Notes under the pieces: model-generated
The model's database searches: none
Told to the model about the DNA's origin: nothing
Seen by the model: only the letters and a program-made list of their open reading frames with translations
Part shown: in pieces, positions 14,022-44,971 of the stretch
How positions within the stretch are numbered: the first letter of the stretch is position 1
How the letters are laid out: each line of letters begins with the position of its first letter
Assembly (NCBI GenBank): GCA_030018135.1
Contig: JASEGJ010000007.1
Location: 1 to 49,409 of the forward strand
Source: Candidatus Hodarchaeaceae archaeon
Lineage (GTDB): Archaea > Hadarchaeota > Hadarchaeia > Hadarchaeales > Hadarchaeaceae
Reading direction: 5' to 3'
Length of the DNA stretch: 49,409 nt
Program-made: the position numbers and the translations under genes

Positions 14022-15307
14022 AAATCGCCGTTATTTCTGATACGCATCTCGGAGCTAAGTGGGGTACTCCTCGTGAGCAAGATTCTTTTGATCAGGCACG
14101 AGAAGCAATCGAACGTGCGCTCGAGCTTGGTGCCCAACTCATTCTCATCTTAGGTGACATCTTCGATACGCGGATACCCCGCCAAGAGATCTGGCCCCAG
14201 GCTATGCGAATTTTAGCATTGGCACTGGCGCGAGAGCAAGGCGAGATAAGACTCAGCAAGGTAATCGACAAGAATCCGGAGGACATCTCCGCCGTAGCCC
14301 TCCAGGGGTCGCCAATTGTAGCTCTACATGGAAATCATGAGCGCCGCGTCAGAGGTCTCATGAACCCGGTTGAGGCCCTTGAGGCGGCGGGGTTCCTTAT
14401 CCACCTGCACCAAAATGTTTTGGTCTTCGAAACACCTGCCGGCGACATAGCCATTCATGGGATGAGCAACGTACCCGAGAGGCACGCGAAAAATGTCCTT
14501 AGCACTTGGAACCCAAAACCCGTAAATGGTGCGTTTAACATCCTCATGCTCCACCAAGCAGTTGGGCAATACGTTTTTTCAAGTGAGGAGTGCCCGACAC
14601 TTGATCTTTCCGACCTGCCGTTAGGCTTCGATCTCTACCTGTGTGGGCACATGCATTATCATGCTGAAGCAGCTGCACATGGCAAGTCGCTACTGTTCCC
14701 TGGCAGCACCGAACGCACGCAGCTCTTGCCCATTGAGGCTCAAGTGCCCAAGGGTTTCTACATGCTATACATTGATGATGGGCTGCGCTATGAGTTCGTC
14801 GAGCTCCAACGGACGCGCGACTTTTATTATGAGGAGATGATTTTCGATGGTGTGGGCATATCTCAGCTGAATGCAGCGGTCAGGGAAAAACTGCAAGAAC
14901 TGCTGGGGAAACCGAGGCGCAATCCCGACAAACTTCCTCTGATAAGGCTTAGGCTCCGCGGCACCCTTGCTAAAGATGCGTCGCGGGGTGAATTCGATCA
15001 TGAAGCTATAATCCAGGAATTTTCGGATAATGCGTCGGTGACAATAAGCAAGGACGACCTCATCGCGCCAGGATTGGAGGAAAAAATGCGGTTCCTGCGC
15101 GAGTTACGTGAGCATCGGCTACCCGTGGATGAAATGGCAATGCGACTGCTCGACGCAAATCTCCGCGATGTTGGGTACGATCAAGTACTCGATTTTCGAG
15201 TGCTCTATGACCTCCTCATCGAAGACAGAACCGAGGAGGCGCTCGACAAGGTGTTTGAAGTTGTGGAAAGATTGGTAGAGGCCGAACTCAAGGGGCGAAA
15301 GCAGTGA
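14018..15307 (+). CDS. mre11: DNA double-strand break repair nuclease Mre11
   Basis: The Mn-dependent nuclease of the Mre11-Rad50 complex (429 aa), which trims DNA ends before homologous recombination. All phosphoesterase motifs are visible: ISDTHLG (residues 6-12), LGDIFDTR, GNHE, LMLHQ and GHMH. The TTG start at 14018 overlaps the topA stop in a TTGA tetranucleotide. It is preceded by a purine-rich GGGGGAAGAGG, and Met-Lys-Ile-Ala at the start matches the family. The stop overlaps the rad50 GTG by 4 nt. Archaeal mre11-rad50 usually sits with herA and nurA; neither is present here. Confidence 0.94.
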   Translation: MKIAVISDTHLGAKWGTPREQDSFDQAREAIERALELGAQLILILGDIFDTRIPRQEIWPQAMRILALALAREQGEIRLSKVIDKNPEDISAVALQGSPIVALHGNHERRVRGLMNPVEALEAAGFLIHLHQNVLVFETPAGDIAIHGMSNVPERHAKNVLSTWNPKPVNGAFNILMLHQAVGQYVFSSEECPTLDLSDLPLGFDLYLCGHMHYHAEAAAHGKSLLFPGSTERTQLLPIEAQVPKGFYMLYIDDGLRYEFVELQRTRDFYYEEMIFDGVGISQLNAAVREKLQELLGKPRRNPDKLPLIRLRLRGTLAKDASRGEFDHEAIIQEFSDNASVTISKDDLIAPGLEEKMRFLRELREHRLPVDEMAMRLLDANLRDVGYDQVLDFRVLYDLLIEDRTEEALDKVFEVVERLVEAELKGRKQ

Positions 15308-17700
15308 TAACACATGTCAAGCTAAAGCAATGGAAGACCCACCTCCAGAGTAATTTGCAATTCGGCGAAGGTACAAACGCCCTCGTGGGGATGATGGGGG
15401 CTGGAAAGTCGGCCGTGCTGGAGGCTGTCGCATATGCGCTCTTTGGCACGTTGCCGAGGGTGCAGACGCGCCGCATAAAACTCGACGACCTTATCATGAA
15501 CAGGCCGAGGCCAATGGACTCGGCTGAGGTTGAGGTTGGCTTTGTCGCTCCCGATGGTGATGAGTACATAGTTAAACGCATCATAGAGCGAGGAAGCGGC
15601 ACAACGTTCTCAGAGCTGCGGAAGGCGAACGGCGAACTCATCGAGAGCCCAAGTGCGACTCGCGTGAGTGAGATGATTCAATCGCTCCTTAAGCTTGATT
15701 ACGACCTTTTTGAACGGGCGATTTACTCCGAGCAAAATCGTCTCGATTATTTCCTGATCCTGCCACGGGGCAAGCGGATGGAGAGCATCGATGAGTTATT
15801 GGGCATAGATAAGCTAGAACTCGCACGAAAGAACATGGGTAATTTGGCGTACCGCGTAAATGGTCGAATTGATGACCGCCAAGCGGCGTTAAACCAGCTC
15901 AAGCAAGATGCAATACTTGCCACATTGCCAGCCCTAGAGCAAGGGTTAAAAGAAATAGAATTATCAAAGCAGGAAGTTCAAGCACGGCTTGGGCAACTGC
16001 AGCCCGAGCTGGATGCCGTCCAAACGCAACTCCAGCGACTGCGCGAGATGGAGCAAAAATCGATACAATTGGATAAATCACTTGGCGAGCTTGAGGGGGC
16101 GGTAAGCGCTATCAAACATCAGTTGGATCAAATCAAGGGCAAGCTTGGGGCGGCCGTTGGAGTTGAGCATGAAGAGCTTCAACAGCAGGTCGCGGATCTT
16201 GAGCAGGCTTGCAACGAGGCTTTTAGTAATGTGGATGTGCTTAATTCTAAGCTCACTATTAGCAGCTCAAGGGTCCGTGAACTGGAAACAAAGATAGGGA
16301 TGTTTCAGGATAGATTGGAAAAGCTTTCGAGCGAAATCGCGCGACTGCATAAATCTCGTAAAGAGCTGGAGCAGTTGAAGCTTCAAGAGGTGATCAGACT
16401 CATTGAAGAGCTTCAGATAAATATTCGAAGCACTGGCGATGAGCTAGCTGCTTGTCGCGCGCGGATGCAAGACCTACAGCAAACATTAAATGAACTCGCG
16501 GCAGCTGGCCCGACTTGTCCAGTTTGCGATAGCCCACTGTCGGAGGATAAAAAACAAAATTTGTTTAAAGAACGTGAGCGCCAACTCGAGGCGCAGCACA
16601 AACAAGCTACCCAGCTGGAAACGCTTCTATCTAAATTGAACGAAGATCTACAGCGGAGACTTGAACTTCAGAGGCGTGCGCTATTGCTCGCAAAGGAGGT
16701 AGAGGACCTTCCAACACTCGAGGCTGAGCACTCACAACTCGAGCAGCAGCTTCGAAGCTTGGAGGGGGAGCTCACAAGCGTTCGCGCGGAGGTAGAAAAA
16801 CTTCGCTCCGATGTTGACAGTTCTCGCCAAAAGGCCGAGAGGCTGCGGGAGCAACTCCTTAAGGCCAAGCAAACATTGCAATTGCGGCTGGACCTCAACC
16901 AACTTGAGTTAAAACATAAACAGAAACTCGCAGGGAGCTTGCGGATACAGCGTGAACTCTGGCAACTGAGGCGAACCTACGATGAAGCCCAGGTTAGGGC
17001 ACTCGAAAAGCGATTCGAGGAACTAATTCGAGCGCATGAACACCTTAAAACAGAGCTTATTGGTAAGGAGCAAGTCATCGCGGAGAGGCGAAAGCTAGTA
17101 GAGAATATTCGGGAAAAACAGACCACTTTAACGCGTTACGAGGTTGAACTCAAGTTCCTTCAGCAGGTATTAGGAGCGATTCAGACGATTCAAACCGCTT
17201 TAACTAGAACACAGACAACATTGCGCCGCGATTTCATCGAGGCGGTGAATGGGGCAATGAACGAGCTATGGGAAGACATTTATCCCTATGGCGATTTTAC
17301 GGGCATCAGGCTCGCTGTCGAAGGAGGGGAGCGCGGAGACTACGTGCTTCAGTTGCGCGATAGGCTTGGCAACTGGATTCCCGTGGAGGGTATCGCGAGC
17401 GGAGGCGAGCGAACGTGCGCCTGTTTGGCATTGAGGATAGCATTCGCAGTCGTCCTGGCGCCTGCATTGAGCTGGTTGGTGCTCGATGAGCCCACGCACA
17501 ACCTCGATGTAGAGGGTATTCAAGAATTAGCGACCGCGTTGCGCGAACGCGTACCGGAAATAGTCCGCCAGGTACTGCTTATAACCCACGAGGAGCGCCT
17601 GGAGGCTGCGGTGAGCGGCTATCTGTACCGCTTTTCGCGTGACAAGGACGCTGACCAACCAACAAAGATCGAACAGGTAGCGCTACCGGAGTTAGATTAA
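15304..17700 (+). CDS. rad50: DNA double-strand break repair ATPase Rad50
   Basis: An SMC-like ATPase (798 aa), somewhat short for Rad50, partner of Mre11. Walker A is GMMGAGKS (residues 29-36). Two long coiled coils flank a zinc hook CPVC (Cys 405, Cys 408). The ABC signature ASGGERTC lies near residue 700, and Walker B is LVLDEPTHNLD. The GTG start overlaps the mre11 stop by 4 nt. The gene ends within a TTAA that is also read as the stop of the converging minus-strand gene. All catalytic elements look intact. Confidence 0.95.
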   Translation: MITHVKLKQWKTHLQSNLQFGEGTNALVGMMGAGKSAVLEAVAYALFGTLPRVQTRRIKLDDLIMNRPRPMDSAEVEVGFVAPDGDEYIVKRIIERGSGTTFSELRKANGELIESPSATRVSEMIQSLLKLDYDLFERAIYSEQNRLDYFLILPRGKRMESIDELLGIDKLELARKNMGNLAYRVNGRIDDRQAALNQLKQDAILATLPALEQGLKEIELSKQEVQARLGQLQPELDAVQTQLQRLREMEQKSIQLDKSLGELEGAVSAIKHQLDQIKGKLGAAVGVEHEELQQQVADLEQACNEAFSNVDVLNSKLTISSSRVRELETKIGMFQDRLEKLSSEIARLHKSRKELEQLKLQEVIRLIEELQINIRSTGDELAACRARMQDLQQTLNELAAAGPTCPVCDSPLSEDKKQNLFKERERQLEAQHKQATQLETLLSKLNEDLQRRLELQRRALLLAKEVEDLPTLEAEHSQLEQQLRSLEGELTSVRAEVEKLRSDVDSSRQKAERLREQLLKAKQTLQLRLDLNQLELKHKQKLAGSLRIQRELWQLRRTYDEAQVRALEKRFEELIRAHEHLKTELIGKEQVIAERRKLVENIREKQTTLTRYEVELKFLQQVLGAIQTIQTALTRTQTTLRRDFIEAVNGAMNELWEDIYPYGDFTGIRLAVEGGERGDYVLQLRDRLGNWIPVEGIASGGERTCACLALRIAFAVVLAPALSWLVLDEPTHNLDVEGIQELATALRERVPEIVRQVLLITHEERLEAAVSGYLYRFSRDKDADQPTKIEQVALPELD

Positions 17701-18179
17701 GAGATTTGGAAAAGTTTTACAGTTGCCTCAACTACCACGTTTTCCCCGCCAGCCTTTGTAATGGATATCCGACCCAATCGAATGAACTGTCTGCTTGTTT
17801 CGCTCGAGTTTTCAGGGCAAACGAGCTCCCAAGTCCTTTGACCGTGTCTCAAAGAGATGGAGACTACAAAATCGTGCGGGCGGAGGTAGTCGATCGCAGC
17901 AAACATCTGCGAACGCAGGTGGTCGCCGGGCACGACCGGATTTTCAAGCACGAGGTTGTCAGCGGCGGCTTTCAAAAAGCTTACCGTATATGGTTCAACC
18001 CAAGCCGTCTCAACCGCCTTATAGAGGTGCTCGCACTTGAGTTCAAGCTGTCTGTCCACGGCGGCTTGGAGCGGTCGTAGGGTGTAGGCGTGCATGAGCA
18101 CAGCACCTAGGACAAGCAAGACGAACATAAAGACCATCGCGAGCACATCCGCGATGCCGCGTACACCTAGGCGTACCAT
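17697..18179 (-). CDS. Pilin-like exported protein with N-terminal hydrophobic helix
   Basis: An unrecognised 160-residue protein. It starts MVRLGVRGIADVLA, then a hydrophobic helix (about residues 10-30), then a soluble domain with few hallmarks. The Arg-Gly-Ile junction followed by a membrane helix resembles an archaeal type IV pilin or archaellin-type signal, so it may be a minor pilin. ATG 18179 is preferred because it puts the hydrophobic segment at the very N-terminus. It overlaps the end of the upstream gene by 13 nt and is the last of four similar genes read together. Its stop shares a TTAA with that of rad50. Confidence 0.65.
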   Translation of the reverse strand: MVRLGVRGIADVLAMVFMFVLLVLGAVLMHAYTLRPLQAAVDRQLELKCEHLYKAVETAWVEPYTVSFLKAAADNLVLENPVVPGDHLRSQMFAAIDYLRPHDFVVSISLRHGQRTWELVCPENSSETSRQFIRLGRISITKAGGENVVVEATVKLFQIS

Positions 18180-18604
18180 GCTATCACACCCAGCTTTGCT
18201 GGCAGGACCCGATTGTTCATCCAGAGAGAGCATGCGATCATCAAAGAGCAACTCGCCTCATCGCTGGGAGGCATTGGCCCGTAGGGACCGAATGTGCCTT
18301 CTTCGCCGCCTCGCTTATAGTGCAAAGTCGCTTGAAACTCAAATTTGCTTTTACCAATCTCCCGCACGAACGTGAGGTTCTCCAATCCATTGGGATCGAG
18401 TATGTAACAACGCTTGCCGCTGATGTTATCGACATATGCAAGTTCTTCTGCGGTCAGACGAGCTGCAATTGCCGAGGTCGCGTCGCTCAGTGCGGCGAGC
18501 GCTGAAATATCGCGGTGTTGTCTATAAGCCGATACTGTTACCAGCAGAAGGATAATCGCCAAGATGCAAACTACAAGAGTTTTTAATATTTGTGTAAGGC
18601 TCAT
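18167..18604 (-). CDS. Pilin-like exported protein
   Basis: An unrecognised 145-residue protein with a single N-terminal hydrophobic helix (about residues 7-27) after a short MSLTQILK leader, then a soluble domain containing several Cys (near residues 67, 115 and 120). The organisation matches a minor pilin or pseudopilin, but no clear peptidase cleavage motif is visible. The ATG overlaps the stop of the gene before it by 4 nt. The gene is the third of a four-gene cassette. Confidence 0.65.
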   Translation of the reverse strand: MSLTQILKTLVVCILAIILLLVTVSAYRQHRDISALAALSDATSAIAARLTAEELAYVDNISGKRCYILDPNGLENLTFVREIGKSKFEFQATLHYKRGGEEGTFGPYGPMPPSDEASCSLMIACSLWMNNRVLPAKLGVIAWYA

Positions 18605-18954
18605 GTAGACACCAATATCGAATTGTTTTCAAGCACGATTGTTAAGGTATAGGTGCCTGCCCAAAGCTCTGGGCCAATAATTGGCAAGGGATAGCCACCT
18701 TGGAGGATAGCTATTCCATCAATGACTAACCGGTCGTTGTCAAATCTTAAGGTATGGTTAGACGGCAGAGTGATCTCAATCGTTTGGGGATTACCAGTCA
18801 CGATTGCTGTCCATACCGCAGCATCTACCTCAAATGCTGCTTCTTTTGCCTCTCGGACGCTAGCCAAGGGCCTCATATATTGATAGCCCATGACAAATGT
18901 CGCAACCACAAGTGCTGCGAGAACGACCAGTCCAAGCGTTCTCAGCGCTGGCAC
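18601..18954 (-). CDS. Small exported or membrane-anchored pilin-like protein
   Basis: An unrecognised 117-residue protein. One N-terminal hydrophobic helix (about residues 6-24) is followed by a beta-rich segment that includes two potential N-glycosylation sites (NHT and NNS). The short head, single helix and beta-rich tail match pilin architecture. The GTG start lies 3 nt after the stop of the preceding gene, and its own stop overlaps the next start by 4 nt, so expression is coupled. Confidence 0.62.
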   Translation of the reverse strand: MPALRTLGLVVLAALVVATFVMGYQYMRPLASVREAKEAAFEVDAAVWTAIVTGNPQTIEITLPSNHTLRFDNDRLVIDGIAILQGGYPLPIIGPELWAGTYTLTIVLENNSILVST

Positions 18955-18957
18955 GCG

Positions 18958-19137
18958 TTACGCTCCCTTGGCATTCTCGATCGCGTTTTCGAGTATTTCA
19001 GATGCCGCCTCGCCAGCCCTCCTATAAAGCCCTATGCCAATGCCCAAGCCTATTGCAAGCAGAGCTACTGCGGCGAGCAACTTCATGACGATTGGCTCAA
19101 CGGCGGCTTCATCGCGTAGTAACTCCCTAATCTTCAT
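18958..19137 (-). CDS. Small pilin-like protein with class III-type signal
   Basis: A 59-residue protein beginning MKIRELLRDEAAVEPIVMK and then a hydrophobic helix rich in Leu, Ala and Gly, ending in a short charged helix. The DEAAVEPI stretch before the membrane helix looks like the archaeal class III signal seen in type IV pilins and archaellins. A very strong AAGGAGGAGGTGAA lies upstream. ATG 19137 is used here; a TTG 6 nt earlier gives a tighter spacing and is possible. It is the first and probably most translated gene of the cassette, which would fit a major pilin subunit. Confidence 0.6.
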   Translation of the reverse strand: MKIRELLRDEAAVEPIVMKLLAAVALLAIGLGIGIGLYRRAGEAASEILENAIENAKGA

Positions 19138-19194
19138 CTGCAAAATTTCACCTCCTCCTTTCCCCTCTCTGGCTCTCATTTTGAGGGGAGTGCC

Positions 19195-19204
19195 TTTTTA
19201 AAGC
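19195..19204 (-). promoter_or_regulatory. TATA box for the pilin-like cassette
   Basis: On the minus strand GCTTTAAAAA lies about 60 nt before the first cassette start. Transcription would begin near 19172, giving a leader of about 35 nt that contains the strong Shine-Dalgarno site. Confidence 0.45.
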
Positions 19205-24144: not shown

Positions 24145-24868
24145 GCCTCCTCACCCTAAGCTCGATCTGCCCGCCCTTCGTCCCCTTCATGGTGGAGAGC
24201 ATGCCATCGATCACCCCGGCTATTAAAGTCTGCATGAAGGGATTGAGGTGAACCTGTTTTCCGTCGATGGTTAATGTGACGCGCTCACGCAAAGTTGGAC
24301 AACCATTCCACCGCTCCCGCCCGGAGAGCACCGCGAGCGCAAACTCCCTGCAGCTTTGATGACCACAATGTCTGCAATCCAGCTCCGGCAGCAGGGGTAG
24401 GGCCTTTTGCTCAACGAGATCGGCGAGCTTTCTCACCTCATCGTGCCGAAAGACGGGCAACCAAAGCTTCCGGTGCCCGATGCAGGCGATGGTGAACTCG
24501 TCCGCCAACTTTTTTGCCTCCGCCCCGCTACGGGCCACAGCCACCTTTGTTATACCCTTCGCCCCCCTGAAGCCTTCGACGATCACGAAATCTATCCCGC
24601 GCAGGGCGCGTATGACATCGTGGAGTTTGGCAGCGCGCCTTGTTATCGTCGCAACCTCTCGCGGCGCGATACATATCACCGGGTTCGCACCCGCCTGCGC
24701 ATGTCGCCACGTGTCCTTACCCCGCTGGTCTATGGTGAACTCGCGTTCGCGCACATGTTTAATGGTACATACTCGATAACCCCGCTTGATCAGCTCTCTA
24801 ACCAGCCCTTCTGTAACCGCTGTTTTGCCCGACTTTTTGTATCCGACTACCGCGACGATTCTAAGCAA
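24134..24868 (-). CDS. mobB: MobB-type GTPase with C-terminal Fe-S region
   Basis: A P-loop protein (244 aa) that helps attach or deliver the molybdopterin nucleotide cofactor. The Walker motif is GYKKSGKT (residues 9-16). A C-terminal extension carries Cys 165, 168, 173 and 190 (CRHCGHQSC and GCP), a pattern known from methanogen MobB proteins and probably binding an Fe-S cluster. The start is TTG 24868, inside the end of moeA (22 nt overlap). No other start lies upstream of the P-loop. It is the second gene of moeA-mobB-moaA. Confidence 0.88.
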   Translation of the reverse strand: MLRIVAVVGYKKSGKTAVTEGLVRELIKRGYRVCTIKHVREREFTIDQRGKDTWRHAQAGANPVICIAPREVATITRRAAKLHDVIRALRGIDFVIVEGFRGAKGITKVAVARSGAEAKKLADEFTIACIGHRKLWLPVFRHDEVRKLADLVEQKALPLLPELDCRHCGHQSCREFALAVLSGRERWNGCPTLRERVTLTIDGKQVHLNPFMQTLIAGVIDGMLSTMKGTKGGQIELRVRRHAR

Positions 24869-26106
24869 GTTCTGCGCCCCCCAAAAAGCATGACCTCGAC
24901 CATTTCCCCTTCCTCGACTATCTCCCGCTCGAGCGGCACCTCCACGTAGCCGTCTGCCATCGAAAGCGCCGTTATCGCCCCCGACCCCTCTAGGAGCGGC
25001 TCGGCTAAAAGCTCACTGCTCTTTCGCGTCAGCTTAACGGGCACAAGCTCGCGCCGCCCCCTAGCTAACAGGATCTTCATGCTCAGTCGTGCACGCACCG
25101 CCTCGCGCCTTAGGTGCGGCGCGCCGGCGAGCTGCCTGAGGTAGGGCGCCACGAGCTGGTCGAACACCATGAGCGCCGATACAGGGTAGCCAGGGAGCCC
25201 GAACACTGGCTTGCCGTTCACGACCGCCAAGAACGTGGGCTTGCCGGGCCTCATCGCAAGCCCGTGGACGAGCAAACCCGGCCTGCCTAAGCCATCGACG
25301 ACCATGGGCACGATGTCGCCCCTGCCAGCCGAGGAGCCGCCCGAGATGATGACCACATCGCAGGTGGCTAAACCCCTTTTAATCGTCACCCCGACCTTAG
25401 ATGCCTCGTCGCTCACTATACCCAAGTATCTGGGTTCGCAACCGTGCTCCCTGACGGCCTCGCATATCGCCGGCCCATTCACATCGTATATCTGCCCCGC
25501 CTTAAGCCTCGAGCCTGGTTTTGCCAGCTCGGCCCCGCTGGAGATGACCGCCACGCGTGGGGGCTTGAGAACCTTCACTCGCTTCACGCCGACGGCCGCC
25601 AAGGTGCCTATCGCGGGCGGCGTGAGCCTCTCCCCTGCGAGCATTACCTTCATGCCGCGCTTGACCTCAGACCCCTGCCGGGAGACGTTCTCACCCGGCG
25701 CTACCGCGCGGTAGATTTTAACCACGTTCCCTTGGGAGACGGCGTGCTCGACCATCAGCACGGCGTTTGCGCCCATTGGCATGGGCGCGCCGGTCGCGAT
25801 CTCGATGCACTGTCCCTCGCCCACTTTCAACCGAGGATAATCACCCGCTCTGATGCTGCCCAAGCAGGAGAGCTCTATAGGCACTTTCTCGTCAGCGCCG
25901 AAGGTGTCGGCAGCTCGAACCGCGTATCCGTCGACGGCCGAGCGATCGAATGGCGGGACATCGACCTTTGAGGTGACATCCTCTGCCAGGACCCGGCCGC
26001 CAGCTTCGTCTAGCGGCACTTCGACCGCATTCGGCCGTGAGCGCCAATATCTTTCCAGAGTGCGCCTAGCATCCTCGAGGGTTCTCACGCGGAGAAATCC
26101 CGGCAT
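24847..26106 (-). CDS. moeA: Molybdopterin molybdenumtransferase MoeA (paralogue 1)
   Basis: Inserts molybdate or tungstate into adenylylated molybdopterin. The N-terminal PPFDRSAVDGYA segment, the VMVEHA segment and the ISGGSSAGRGD motif with PGKP are all typical of MoeA. Length 419 aa matches the stand-alone enzyme. A second moeA lies at 28089-29324; archaea often keep two, perhaps for Mo and W. The ATG has no clear ribosome site, and a TATA element ends about 30 nt upstream, so a near-leaderless message is likely. It leads the operon that ends with the M29 peptidase. Confidence 0.93.
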   Translation of the reverse strand: MPGFLRVRTLEDARRTLERYWRSRPNAVEVPLDEAGGRVLAEDVTSKVDVPPFDRSAVDGYAVRAADTFGADEKVPIELSCLGSIRAGDYPRLKVGEGQCIEIATGAPMPMGANAVLMVEHAVSQGNVVKIYRAVAPGENVSRQGSEVKRGMKVMLAGERLTPPAIGTLAAVGVKRVKVLKPPRVAVISSGAELAKPGSRLKAGQIYDVNGPAICEAVREHGCEPRYLGIVSDEASKVGVTIKRGLATCDVVIISGGSSAGRGDIVPMVVDGLGRPGLLVHGLAMRPGKPTFLAVVNGKPVFGLPGYPVSALMVFDQLVAPYLRQLAGAPHLRREAVRARLSMKILLARGRRELVPVKLTRKSSELLAEPLLEGSGAITALSMADGYVEVPLEREIVEEGEMVEVMLFGGRRTCLESSR

Positions 26107-27010: not shown

Positions 27011-27891
27011 ATGCATCTGAGCAAGCGGACCTTGGCGATAGCGCTAGCGTCGGTGATAATTTTCGGTGCGACCCTCGCGTGGTTCACAGCCGAGCCCCAA
27101 AGGCCCATAGCCATCGTCAGCGCCCTGCCGCAAGAGCTTCAGCCCATCAGGGAAGCGATGGGTTCGAGGCGGGAGTTCCGGGCGGCGAACTGGACCTTCT
27201 ACGAAGGCGAGCTTTACGGCAAGCGCGTCGTCGCGACGAGCTGCGGGAGGGGCAAGGTGAGCGCTGCCGCGGCGATGAGCCTGCTCATAGAGCTTTTTGA
27301 GCCAAAGGCTATCATCTCCATCGCGACCTCTGGCGCCCTAGGCGATAGCGGGATAGGCGATGTGGTCATCTCCCTTCGAGCCGCGCAGCACGACCACGGC
27401 GAGATCATACCCATAGGGGGCCTGCCCGGCGCGCTCTACCCAAAGAACACCGACTTCGGGAGGGCTTCGTGCCCTCGCCCGTCCAGCTCTGGGCGGAAAA
27501 TGGCAGACAGCTCCTGAGCTACTTTGAAGCGGACAGCGATCTCGTGGCGCTTGCCATGCGGGCGGGCGAGCTGGTGGAGTTGAGGCGGATCCCAGCGCTT
27601 GGCTGGACACCGACCGTAAGGGCGGGCACGGTGGTGAGCGGCGATCAGTTCGTCGCCTCCTCGCAAAAGCGGGACTGGCTGAGCAGGGCGTTCGACGCTA
27701 GCGCCGTTGATATGGAGGGCGCCGCCATAGCTCAGGTCGCTCACCTGCGCGGGGTGCCATGGGTGCTCGTGCGATGCAACTCCGATGTGGCGGATGAAAA
27801 CGCATATGCTGACATGGCTAGGTTCAGCGACTACGCCGCAGGTAACGCGGCCGCGCTCGCGCTCAAGATGGTCGAACTCTGGACGGCATAA
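27011..27891 (+). pseudogene. Membrane-anchored MTA/SAH nucleosidase-like protein, frameshifted
   Basis: Two reading frames together make one phosphorylase/nucleosidase-family protein of about 290 residues. The first (27011 to about 27460) has an N-terminal anchor (about residues 7-25), then IAIVSALPQELQPI and SCGRGKVSAAAA, both family-typical. The second (from about 27460 to 27891) has the VVSGDQFVAS, VDMEGAA and RCNSD motifs. The frames join near 27455-27466, where restoring one base in the GGG run gives DFGEGFVPSPVQL. GTGAGGTGAA precedes the ATG. Normal nucleosidases are soluble, so the anchor is odd. The break may be genuine inactivation or a sequence error. Confidence 0.8.
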
Positions 27892-28088: not shown

Positions 28089-29324
28089 CTAGCGATAGAG
28101 TTCGACCTCGACGATGCTGCCCCCGTTGAAGCCCTCCACATCCTCCGGCACGATGACGAACCCGTTTGCCTTGGTCATCGAACTCAATATGCCGGAGCCC
28201 GCTATCCGGATCGGATCGGCCATGAGTTCGCCCGCCTCGCGTCGAACGTGCACTCTAACGACCTCGATGCGCCCCAGCGTTGAGCTGACCTTCCGCGTCA
28301 ATCGAGCCAGAATCGATGGGTAGCCTCGATCGGCAGGCAAGCCCTGCATGCGCCGCAGCGCCGGGCGGGCAATCATATCGAAGGCGACGAGCGCGCTGAC
28401 CGGAAAGCCCGCCAACGCGAATACTGGCTTGCCCTTGACGATGCCGAAGGCCGTCGGACCTCCAGGGCGGATAGCCACGCCGTGGAGGAGCACCTCGCCC
28501 AGCTCGGCGACGGCATTCGGCACGATATCGCGCTCGCCGACCGAGCTACCGCCGGATATCAGCACCACATCATGTTTTATCGCCCTGAGCAAAGCGCGCT
28601 TCAGCAGTTCGGGCCCGTCCGGCACTATGCCTAGCCGACGTGGCAATCCCCCGCAGCTGGCTACCGCTGCCGCTAGCGAGTAGCTGTTGATGTCGGCGAT
28701 TTCCGCACGCTTGAGGCGCGTGCCCGGCTCTCGAAGCTCGCTGCCCGTCGCCAAGATCGCGACCCTCGGCCTACGGGCGACTCGCACTCGAACATTGCCC
28801 GTCGACGCGAGCATGCCTATATCCTGCGGCCTGAGCTGCCACCCGCGCTCGAGCACGACCTCGCCGGCTTTTACGTCCTCGCCCCGCGCCGACACGTTCT
28901 TGCCCGGCGTGACGGGCGCAAGCACGGCGATGCGGCTGCCCTCAACCCTGGTATGCTCGACCATGACGGCGGCATCCGCGCCCTTGGGCATCGGCGCACC
29001 CGTCATTATTTTAACAGCTTCGCCCCTCCTCACGCTCAGCTTGGTCGCGGCCCCAATGTCCGCCGATCCGACGACGTGCAATTTCGCTGGTTTCAGCTCG
29101 CTCGCGCCGAAGGTGTCGGCCGCTTGGACCGCGTATCCGTCGACAGCCGAGCGATCGAACGGCGGAACGTCGACTTTAGAAAAGATGTCCTCGGCCAACG
29201 CGCGGTTGAGGGCTCGATCGAACGGCACGACCTCCGACCCGAGTTGTTTGACGTTGGAGAGTACGACTTTCAGCGCGTCGGAAAGTCGAATGTAACTCGC
29301 GAATCCGCGCATTCTGACCGACAT
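28089..29324 (-). CDS. moeA: Molybdopterin molybdenumtransferase MoeA (paralogue 2)
   Basis: The second MoeA (412 aa), with PPFDRSAVDGYA, VMVEHT, and ISGGSSVGERD motifs and a C-terminal FNGGSIVEVELY beta-barrel. Its sequence differs clearly from paralogue 1, so the two are old duplicates and may be selective for different metals. I chose ATG 29324, one base after the moaB stop; longer forms would run back through moaB and start with a Ser-rich stretch unlike the family. It ends the moaC-moaB-moeA operon. Confidence 0.92.
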   Translation of the reverse strand: MSVRMRGFASYIRLSDALKVVLSNVKQLGSEVVPFDRALNRALAEDIFSKVDVPPFDRSAVDGYAVQAADTFGASELKPAKLHVVGSADIGAATKLSVRRGEAVKIMTGAPMPKGADAAVMVEHTRVEGSRIAVLAPVTPGKNVSARGEDVKAGEVVLERGWQLRPQDIGMLASTGNVRVRVARRPRVAILATGSELREPGTRLKRAEIADINSYSLAAAVASCGGLPRRLGIVPDGPELLKRALLRAIKHDVVLISGGSSVGERDIVPNAVAELGEVLLHGVAIRPGGPTAFGIVKGKPVFALAGFPVSALVAFDMIARPALRRMQGLPADRGYPSILARLTRKVSSTLGRIEVVRVHVRREAGELMADPIRIAGSGILSSMTKANGFVIVPEDVEGFNGGSIVEVELYR

Positions 29325-29325
29325 T

Positions 29326-29841
29326 TCACTCACGCGCATGCTTGACGATGTGCCCGAGCTCGGGGAGGATGAGCTCCATGGCGACCTCAACCGCATTCGG
29401 AGCACCTGGCAGGCAGAATATGGGCTTCCGTTTTATTACCCCTGCGGTCGCGCGCGTCAGGATCGCCGGCCCGCCGACCTTTTCATAGCCCGTGCGTCTC
29501 AGAAGCTCGCCAAAGCCGGGCAATTCCTTTTCGAGGAGGGGGCATATCGTCTCTATCGTCACATCGCGGGCGGTTATCCCGGTGCCGCCGGTCGTTATTA
29601 TGGCATCGATCTCAGGGTCCGAGCTGAACCTCTCGACGGCGGCCCTGATCTCGTCGGCTTCGTCCGGCAGGATCAGTCGAGTGGGGGCATGGCCGGCTTC
29701 CTTGAGCCTGCGCTCGATAAGCTTCCCTGATACATCCTCATCCTTGCCCTCCTGCATCGCCGCCGCCCGGCTATCGCTCACCGTGAGCACCGCGATACGC
29801 AAGTGCTGTGGCGCGCCCTTTTTGTGCTCTATTCCACCCAT
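29326..29841 (-). CDS. moaB: Molybdopterin adenylyltransferase MoaB/MogA-type
   Basis: Adenylylates molybdopterin before metal insertion by MoeA. The TTGGTGITARD motif and the GAPNAVEVAMELILPEL C-terminal segment are family marks. Length 171 aa is normal. The ATG overlaps the end of moaC by 13 nt, and moeA follows 1 nt after the stop, so the three are made together. Confidence 0.92.
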   Translation of the reverse strand: MGGIEHKKGAPQHLRIAVLTVSDSRAAAMQEGKDEDVSGKLIERRLKEAGHAPTRLILPDEADEIRAAVERFSSDPEIDAIITTGGTGITARDVTIETICPLLEKELPGFGELLRRTGYEKVGGPAILTRATAGVIKRKPIFCLPGAPNAVEVAMELILPELGHIVKHARE

Positions 29842-42978: not shown

Positions 42979-44184
42979 ATGGTGCTGTTTAAATGGCTCT
43001 TTGCCCATCGGAAGGGTTTCTTGCCAATGTTTTTTTTGATACTCAATTCGGTAACGTGGTTTTACCTAATGGTATTCATGATAGAGTTCATGATGCCGGA
43101 TGTGAATCCTTTTGCGTCCTCGCTTCGCTGGCTGTTCTATATGACCACGGCGGTATCCATGTTGATCGGGCCCGTCGTCGTCGGAAGGGTCAGTAAAGCA
43201 CGGTTCCTCTCCTTTTGGATCCTCTTAGGCGTTATTTTTTCGTTATTTCCTATGATTTTGCTTACATCTAGCGAATACGAAGTCGCGGCGCTGCTGATCC
43301 TCTGGGGTTTTGCATTCGGGATCGGCTTCCCCTCCTGCCTCGCCCTAATACCCACTCTCACGAGTGTTGAGGAAAGGGGGCGAGCGGGAGGTGCGGTATT
43401 TTTTGCAACTTATGCCATCTCACCATTATTGATAATTGCTATCAAGCAACTTGATGTTTTTTCAGGTTCTTTCGTGCTTGCAGCATGGAGAAGTCTCTGC
43501 ATTGGAGCGTTTTTGTTTAGTTTTAATGTGGATGTCGCATCACTTAGACCCGTTTCTTATTGTTCTATCCTCCGCCGTAGTATGTTCCTCCTTTATTTTC
43601 TCCCTTGGTTAGCTTTCTGTTTGATAAATTATTTTGAAAGACAGGTTTTGGAACAGTTTTTTGGTAAATCCATGATAGCTTTGATGGTTACCGTTGAGCT
43701 CGTAGTTGGGAGTCTTTTTTGTCTTATAGGCGGATGGCTTATGGATTTGAAAGGAAGAAAGTGGGTAATCATCATGGGACTTGTGGCATTGGGGTTAGGG
43801 TATGCCTTGCTCGGCCTTTTTCCGCTTATTTCTGCCGTCCAAGCATTCTATATGATTATGGATGGTATCGCTTTCGGCATCTTTACGGTGGCGTTTATAT
43901 TTGTCGTATGGGGAGACATTTCAAACGGTGAACGTGGAGAGAAATTTTACGGAATAGGAGGTCTCCCTGTTCTATTAGCTCCGACGTTGTCCCTGTTCGC
44001 CGCCGCTTGGCTTAGAACGCTAGACGCGAGCAACGCCTTCTCGCTCGCCAGCTTCTTCCTCTTCCTGGCGGTCATCCCGATCTTCTTCGCCCCCGAGCTG
44101 CTTCCGGAGTGCGTGCTAAAGGAGAGGGAGCTCAGGAGGTACGTCGAGGAGGTCAAGAAGGTCGCTGGTCGGGGCGGGGCTTGA
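42979..44184 (+). CDS. Major facilitator superfamily-like transporter
   Basis: A polytopic membrane protein (401 aa) with about 12 hydrophobic helices. It shows the MFS-type loop after helices 2 and 8 (GRVSKARFLSF and DLKGRKWVI). Its substrate is unknown. ATG 42979 follows GGGGTGGC after about 10 nt. The first kilobase is AT-rich, while the last 200 nt return to the high GC of the neighbours, suggesting a mosaic gene or recent transfer. Its last 32 nt are antisense to the end of the ParA gene. Confidence 0.8.
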   Translation: MVLFKWLFAHRKGFLPMFFLILNSVTWFYLMVFMIEFMMPDVNPFASSLRWLFYMTTAVSMLIGPVVVGRVSKARFLSFWILLGVIFSLFPMILLTSSEYEVAALLILWGFAFGIGFPSCLALIPTLTSVEERGRAGGAVFFATYAISPLLIIAIKQLDVFSGSFVLAAWRSLCIGAFLFSFNVDVASLRPVSYCSILRRSMFLLYFLPWLAFCLINYFERQVLEQFFGKSMIALMVTVELVVGSLFCLIGGWLMDLKGRKWVIIMGLVALGLGYALLGLFPLISAVQAFYMIMDGIAFGIFTVAFIFVVWGDISNGERGEKFYGIGGLPVLLAPTLSLFAAAWLRTLDASNAFSLASFFLFLAVIPIFFAPELLPECVLKERELRRYVEEVKKVAGRGGA

Positions 44185-44971
44185 GCGCGTCCTTGGCCTT
44201 CTCCACTTGCTTGACGACCTCAACCAAGCTCTTCGAAAACGGGTGGTCCGGCTTCTCCAGCGCAATGATCGTCGACCTCTCCAGCCCGAGGACGTCGCAA
44301 TAGCAGGGCAGAAGGTCGATCACCGGCAGTTTGAAGGCCTTTTTGAATTGATTCGCCAGCTTCTTCCTCATCTCCTCGTTTATCGTCAACTGCGCGGGTA
44401 TCTTGTTCATCAAGACCATGGCCCGCTTCTCGAGCAGGCCGTAGAGCTCGCCCACCATGCCCTGGGCGCCCGCGACGTCGGACGAGTCCCAAGTCGAGAC
44501 CACCAGCACCACGTCCGCCGCGGCGATCGCGTTTATGCTCGCGTAGCTAAGGCCCGGGCCGGTGTCGAGGATCACGTAGTCCATTGCCAACTTCTTGAGC
44601 AGGATGTCCCTCAGCGAGAGCAGGCGGTGCAGCGCCCGCATCTCCCACTTGCCGTTCTTCGTCACGATCTCCCTTATCGCTTGCATCGACGGATTTGCCA
44701 GGGCCACGAGCAGCCTCCCCTCGGTGCCCTTTTCCTTCGAGAAATCCTTCAATATGTCGATCGGCTCGCACCTGCCCTCCAAAAAGTCGTTCATCCAGTA
44801 CTTTCCGTCCGCCGCGAAGGTGGCGTCGAGGCTGGGCGCGCGCAGGTCCAGATCTAGCAGGCAGACGTTCTTGCCTTGGCTCGCGAATATCGCCGCCAAG
44901 TTGGTGGAGATCAGGCTCTTTCCCGTACCTCCCTTGTAGCTGTGCACCGCTATGACCATGCCCGGGTTCAA
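44153..44971 (-). CDS. ParA/MinD-family ATPase
   Basis: A deviant-Walker P-loop ATPase (272 aa) with YKGGTGKS (residues 12-19), LLDLDLRAPSLD and DYVILDTGPGLS motifs. Such proteins position DNA or protein cargo by ATP-driven surface binding. The start is TTG 44971, with GGGGGAGG about 6 nt upstream and a 4-nt overlap with the winged-helix gene before it. The pair may be a DNA partition module like SegAB, but the partner differs. No flagellar or Fe-S assembly genes are nearby. Confidence 0.85.
   Translation of the reverse strand: MNPGMVIAVHSYKGGTGKSLISTNLAAIFASQGKNVCLLDLDLRAPSLDATFAADGKYWMNDFLEGRCEPIDILKDFSKEKGTEGRLLVALANPSMQAIREIVTKNGKWEMRALHRLLSLRDILLKKLAMDYVILDTGPGLSYASINAIAAADVVLVVSTWDSSDVAGAQGMVGELYGLLEKRAMVLMNKIPAQLTINEEMRKKLANQFKKAFKLPVIDLLPCYCDVLGLERSTIIALEKPDHPFSKSLVEVVKQVEKAKDALKPRPDQRPS

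Follow-up and report, generated by a model that had tools for sequence, protein, structure and literature searches.

In archaea, modules of an ATPase and a TadC platform are reported to serve pilins that are encoded elsewhere in the genome and to share pilin sets (Makarova et al., 2016, PMC4858521). The same survey describes, for the type IV pili of subclade 4F, a TadC platform together with an ATPase whose N-terminus is cysteine-rich, the pilin set being separate, and it assigns small major pilins of about 70 amino acids (aa) to clade 1. In Haloferax volcanii, the pilins are encoded apart from the PilB3-PilC3 motor (PMC4858521), and PilA is cut at RA|VS, so that a charged residue and A precede the cut and V is the first residue of the mature helix (PMC4371748). 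Short major pilins have been tied to the Epd pili of methanogens and the Tad pili of bacteria (PMC6668835), and Tad pilins are described as having no globular domain (PMC11067988). Here we analyzed a stretch of 49,409 nucleotides from Candidatus Hodarchaeaceae archaeon (phylum Hadarchaeota; contig JASEGJ010000007.1; the whole stretch is called the window), in which four coupled genes on the minus strand (positions 19137 to 17697), termed g1 to g4, each encode one N-terminal hydrophobic helix. Sequence comparison indicates that g1-g4 are very probably the pilin subunit set of a Hadarchaeal type IV pilus.

The Hadarchaeal system shares features with each of the systems described above. As in subclade 4F, a PilB-like ATPase with a cysteine-rich start (CCGC, CRVC, CRGC and CTEC, all within residues 1-140; contig C45 of the same genome) is combined with a TadC-like platform and a separate pilin set; its P-loop is GEKGSAKT, and the likeness is one of features, not of tree placement or arCOG pilin matching. 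With the PilA/PilB3-PilC3 system of Haloferax volcanii it shares the position of the pilins apart from the motor and the kind of cleavage site, which is RG|VEP in most g1 sequences. The Haloferax site, too, continues with P. The systems differ in that g1 carries VEP-MK and its head is short or absent, and the PilB3-type ATPase of this genome is the one on contig C25, not the C45 PilB. The very short major pilin candidate is similar to those of Epd and Tad pili, of which the Tad pilin is also without a globular domain. However, Epd-like and Tad systems have two one-domain platform genes, while the Hadarchaeal platform is one protein of about 660 aa. The prepilin peptidase on contig C23 scores under the curated cut-offs of both EppA (37.8 bits, cut-off 450) and FlaK (41.4 bits, cut-off 330). 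While an archaeal type IV pilus is a known kind of system, the new elements here are the pilin families, for which there is no curated model, the platform family, seen in Hadarchaeota alone, the splitting of the operon, and the pairing of a headless shaft candidate with a lengthened minor pilin. A literature search of titles and the starts of abstracts, with subscription journals and preprints outside its scope, found no described type IV pilus of Hadesarchaea or Hadarchaeota.

The probable pilin cassette and its motor

The genome containing the window (G000; 1.11 Mb in 45 contigs, 92.9% complete) was compared with its phylum, sampled as 28 genomes. Directly upstream of the cassette, six relatives encode a PilB-like ATPase followed by a TadC-like platform (PilC): the order PilB-PilC-g1-g2-g3-g4 is contiguous in genomes G004, G023, G019 and G018, and PilB-PilC-g1 lies at a contig end in G020 and G002. 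The orthologous platform of G000 was found on contig C45 (54% identity over residues 2-655 of 660), directly preceded by its PilB (60% identity), and the pair is flanked by metabolic genes and the RFC small subunit gene. In addition, an A24 prepilin peptidase is encoded on contig C23 (PF01478 5e-16, PF06819 3e-13). These findings support the pilin-like identity proposed for g1-g4 in the initial annotation. The same annotation had reported no pilus ATPase or membrane platform nearby, which is true of the window, but both are present elsewhere in the genome; it had also suggested a search for PilB/PilC and EppA homologues, which returned the C45 pair and the C23 peptidase, the latter below the EppA cut-off.

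A single gene encodes the platform; its product has 658 aa in G000, compared with 661 aa in the sister genome G005. Among 394 genomes, platform matches of at least 42% identity were confined to Hadarchaeota; outside the phylum, the matches listed at E ≤ 1e-20 had 20-27% identity. The C45 PilB matches FlaI (7e-15) and TadA (2.8e-14) in NCBIfam, both under the curated cut-offs, as well as the solved structures of GspE, FlaI and CpaF (E 9e-11 to 6e-8). It is missed by Pfam, and the G000 platform has no direct Pfam match either. The link between the platform family and T2SSF comes from eleven of the weaker platform matches, which are the same open frames that pass the PF00482 cut-off; the platform copy of G017 reaches 23.1 bits, with the cut-off at 25.2. 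Matches to PF00437 and PF00482 were considered as markers of the cassette motor and rejected, as in G000 these models find the C25 pair and ATPase frames on C16 and C4, not the C45 pair. In the search of this genome, the cassette contig gave no match to PF00437, PF00482 or the cognate platform.

The presence of the cassette is matched by that of its motor. Among the 11 near-complete genomes (at least 90% complete, at most 5% contamination), g1, g4, the platform and a fifth pilin-like gene, g5, were each found in nine, the same nine in every case, and none of the four was found in the other two, G024 and G001. As every one of the 11, G024 and G001 included, has some kind of PF00482 platform (E ≤ 0.001), the match in presence is specific to the cassette system. 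Owing to shared ancestry, the co-occurrence in 9 of 11 genomes is less independent than it appears.

Further motor loci were detected in G000. On C25 (fetched stretch L032:1679-4693), a PilB3-type ATPase with an intein at its P-loop (GGTASGK...; PF14890 4e-23) lies beside a canonical TadC with two T2SSF matches, constituting a second motor locus. C16 (L056:8415-12264) carries a third, divergent ATPase (26% identity to the C45-type PilB) and a platform-like gene that is apparently in two adjacent open frames. The pilins might be used by one of these loci, besides or in place of the C45 pair, because in archaea such modules can act on pilins in trans and have pilin sets in common (PMC4858521), and both loci are present in the genome. 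We consider this unlikely, as the C45-type pair stands directly upstream of the cassette in the six relatives and tracks its presence, while PF00482 platforms are also present in the two genomes where the cassette was not found. The RFC small subunit beside the C45 pair (L088:7607-9904) is 765 aa long with an intein (PF14890 1.5e-13, LAGLIDADG weak), and its G005 copy is uninterrupted (325 aa, L089:7146-8123). A MinD/ParA-like ATPase is encoded within the window at 44153-44971 (PF13614 1.6e-16); according to the survey (PMC4858521), euryarchaeal type IV pili are expected to have a FleN/MinD ATPase as a stand-alone partner.

The cassette starts with g1 (18958..19137, minus strand; 59 aa), a headless type IV prepilin with predicted cleavage at LLRDEA|AVEPIVMKLL. 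It is followed on the same strand by two minor-pilin-like genes, g2 (18601..18954; 117 aa), with a long N-terminal helix and beta strands, and g3 (18167..18604; 145 aa), with a single N-terminal hydrophobic helix, and by g4 (17697..18176; 159 aa), a class III prepilin with predicted cleavage at VRG|IADVLAM, whose open frame extends to 18251. There is a 3-bp gap between g1 and g2, a 4-bp overlap between g2 and g3 and a 10-bp overlap between g3 and g4. The initial description of four coupled genes, each with one helix and a small soluble part, holds for the coupling and the helices, but g1 is nearly without a soluble part here. A search of relatives for the same set recovered the order g1-g2-g3-g4 in the fetched stretches, some of which end at contig ends, and this preserved order indicates a gene set beyond chance. 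In total, g4 was found in 22 of the 28 genomes, counting G012, which has only a 31-residue remnant. The strong ribosome site noted initially corresponds to a predicted Shine-Dalgarno sequence, GGAGGTGA (19148-19155, minus strand), 10 nt ahead of the g1 ATG at 19137, and a TATA-like sequence, CTTTAAAAAG (19194-19203, minus strand), was also read 57-66 bp upstream of this ATG; the scan for bacterial promoters and terminators is not informative for an archaeon.

Class III signals were identified with a loose rule of our own, not FlaFind, after the criteria given in PMC4371748: a charged residue at -2, G/A/S at -1 and then a hydrophobic stretch. With one stretch counted per genome and matches starting after query residue 12 left out, the rule was passed by g1 in 17/18 cases, g4 in 16/18, g5 in 13/15, g3 in 5/14 and g2 in 1/14. 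The single g2 pass falls upstream of the gene's own start, and a few passes, such as that of g5 in L090, are at shifted sites. A class III-like signal had been ascribed initially to the first gene; g1 of the window does pass, but the signal is not exclusive to it, as g4 passes too. The weight of the rule lies in the conserved position of the site across each family. Prediction of prepilin peptidase sites, proposed with the initial annotation, thus yielded sites in g1, g4 and also g5.

The genes g2 and g3 were assigned to the pilus system because of linkage and profile homology alone, not class III sites. For comparison, g2-like and g3-like proteins located beside the same kind of motor in archaea outside the phylum were chosen by eye, four per set; several of them have class III-like starts (KGIES, KGIEG, RGQMG, KGQAG). 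The g2 alignment was built without L109 (internal stop) and L105 (cut before g2), and the g3 alignment without L105 (cut) and L106 (g3 in two frames). The g2 profile matched its outside set with an hhalign probability of 96.6% and a score of 61.8, compared with 27.7 for the top of 40 column shuffles. The g3 profile gave 53% and a score of 32, or 75% and 36 without row L208, and the top of 40 shuffles, run against the four-row set only, was 19.4. The AlphaFold2 model of g2 (pLDDT 81) has a helix at residues 3-53 and five strands. That of g4 likewise combines one long N-terminal helix with a small four-stranded part, and this architecture speaks for pilins.

The headless g1 and the lengthened g5

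Nearly full-length matches to g1 (from residue 1 or 2 to 139-143 of a 143-residue query), covering the pilin N-terminus and the head, were found in 16 genomes, and partial matches in three others (G002 and G020 at contig ends; G006, where the match ends early). In G000 and G005, g1 ends after 59-60 aa and lacks the beta head, some 90 residues long, that is present in relatives. The possibility that this frame is a mis-read fragment of a longer gene was rejected, as the frame closes with a stop 3 bp ahead of g2 and ends in a like manner in G005. The platform tree places G000 and G005 as sisters (support 99/98); 19 genomes with the platform were submitted, and 18 rows were used after G026, read out of frame with 22 stops, was left out. 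Because these two genomes are sisters and the other two cassette-bearing families of the order have retained the head, loss of the head in the G000/G005 lineage is the simplest reading of the sequences. Matches of the head to the Pfam families Cadherin-like, BACON and DUF11 were all sub-threshold. In many Hadarchaeal genomes, for example at G021:C3, G022:C8 and G026:C1, larger proteins (with open frames of up to 5,638 aa) contain portions that resemble the head, and nothing in G000 beyond the stump itself matched g1 at E ≤ 0.05.

The stump might also be a decaying remnant of a headed pilin, with the pilus being lost in this lineage. Relatives do retain the head, and losses do happen, as is seen from the g4 remnant of G012 beside rad50. 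However, the stump is the best-conserved cassette gene between the two genera: G000 and G005 copies are 80% identical (non-synonymous divergence, dN, 0.16; synonymous divergence, dS, about 2.2), compared with 52-58% for g2-g4, 71% for rad50 and 75% for the RFC large subunit, so the stump appears to be under selection. Moreover, it has a full ribosome site, and in L209, from an archaeal genome outside the phylum, a comparable class III-like pilin of 61 aa stands ahead of g2- and g3-like genes, which indicates that small headless pilins occur in such a position outside the phylum as well. Decay of g1 is therefore an improbable explanation.

The fifth pilin-like gene, g5, generally encodes about 226 aa and was found in 20 of the 28 genomes. 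In eleven of these it follows g4 directly, and in the other nine it is located elsewhere; G000, where it is on contig C41, is one of the nine. The nine genomes with a separate g5 are the same nine in which the cassette lies beside rad50, so that one move of g1-g4 to rad50, away from the motor and g5, explains both. As judged from these positions, the pilus operon of G000 is split over three places, the cassette, C45 and C41. Here g5 is 508 aa long, and in G005 it runs for 430 aa to a contig end, while the frames of other genomes have at most 53% of the G000 size (maximum 270 aa). In both genomes the extension comprises a linker rich in glycine and an additional C-terminal region (CarboxypepD_reg E 0.039, below the cut-off).

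The rad50 neighbourhood and other explanations

The initial annotation placed the cassette between DNA repair genes, proposed minor pilins or DNA-uptake pseudopilins, and called the position after rad50 suggestive. A repair gene, rad50 (15304-17700, plus strand), does lie on one side, but the other neighbour, the RFC large subunit gene (listed from 19207, plus strand), is a replication gene and divergent from the cassette. The stops of rad50 and g4 overlap by 2 bp, and because the two genes are convergent, the cassette does not follow rad50 in one transcript. In nine genomes (the window and L034-L041) rad50 is beside g4, with mre11 adjoining in eight of them; the stretches fetched for other genomes (L042-L054), some of them short contigs, showed no rad50. 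Proximity to repair genes is therefore a feature of one part of the phylum. In G012 (L055:7053-7145), the 31-residue C-terminal g4 remnant beside rad50 lies where relatives hold the whole cassette and is a trace of loss.

The rad50/mre11 linkage might still mean that g1-g4 are competence-type pseudopilins functionally tied to that locus, and some archaeal pili (Ups) have been linked to UV-induced aggregation and DNA exchange (PMC11178815). The convergent orientation of rad50 argues against this, and so does the restriction of the linkage to nine genomes, as it was unseen in the stretches fetched for other cassette-bearing genomes. ComEC was found in none of the 28 genomes; this counts against DNA uptake of the bacterial type but is a weak point, since the archaeal control genomes were also negative. 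The DNA-uptake role suggested initially is thus very improbable.

Several observations weigh against a pilin role or against its assignment to the C45 motor. The cassette and this motor are unlinked in G000, and the C25 and C16 loci could serve the same pilins. In the window, neither g2 nor g3 passes the class III rule. Moreover, this rule is loose: even in a slightly stricter form with only G/A at -1, it was passed by 13 of 250 non-cassette open reading frames, which are 13 of the 35 with an N-terminal hydrophobic stretch. For g1-g4, Pfam and NCBIfam gave matches below cut-off or none. No counterpart of g4 was found in the outside sets (hhalign at most 2%), and its sequence profile had no match in the PDB. 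The AlphaFold2 model of g4, with a helix at 5-57, two further helices and four strands (mean pLDDT 86), was built from 13 sequences, and the other four models were poor (pLDDT 51-75). For the g4 and g2 models, Foldseek returned no solved relative at E ≤ 0.001, and the VIA-align rows shown included no outstanding pilin (for g2, C. difficile PilW reached Z 3.0), the best rows for g4 being mostly Cache/PAS sensor domains and ribosomal proteins. That g1-g4 are membrane-anchored sensor or signalling proteins with Cache/PAS-like domains is very improbable, since Z values of about 7-8 are common background by the tool's own note and both the class III sites and the PilB/PilC linkage would be left unexplained.

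Two other features of the window were observed. Two moeA-like genes (24847-26106 and 28089-29405) are located near each other in a molybdopterin gene neighbourhood, as named from their translations. A nucleosidase-like open frame (27011-27517, named by eye) appears truncated at its C-terminus, perhaps through a frameshift.

A proposed Hadarchaeal pilus and its meaning

If g1-g4 are pilin subunits, as we favour, the prepilins g1-g5 would enter the membrane, where the A24 peptidase would cut the short charged leaders of g1, g4 and g5. PilB would power PilC, and g1 helices would be pulled from the membrane into the filament core, while g2-g5 would act as low-copy minor pilins starting, capping or decorating the filament. 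In G000, the pilins would have to reach the C45 motor in trans, and the split operon is no objection to this because service of pilins in trans has been reported (PMC4858521). We infer the division into shaft and tip subunits. On this division g1 is probably the shaft subunit, and g5 may possibly be a tip adhesin. The term minor pilins, offered initially as one option for all four genes, is probably too narrow as the sole role, as g1 has features expected of a shaft subunit. By analogy with other archaeal type IV pili, adhesion is the likeliest use of the pilus, with about an even chance.

In G000 and G005, a headless shaft subunit would make the filament a thin bundle composed of helices alone, similar to a Tad pilus, and the lengthened C-terminus of g5 may have taken over as the surface-facing domain. 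We tentatively suggest that the exposed domain has moved in this one lineage, with g1 losing its beta head to leave a bare helix of about 48 residues and g5 gaining a large C-terminal region on a glycine-rich linker to become the sole adhesive tip; that an archaeal pilus with heads was turned, within a lineage, into a headless pilus of Tad-like form is conceivable but doubtful.

These genes would probably be labelled hypothetical in standard annotation, as Pfam misses the ATPase and the pilins reach the cut-off of no curated family. With the system described here, Hadarchaeota, a phylum represented by metagenome-assembled genomes, would gain a defined pilus system. If the loss of the g1 head is real, the two sister genera and their headed relatives would provide a natural experiment on the origin of headless pili and on the purpose of the head.

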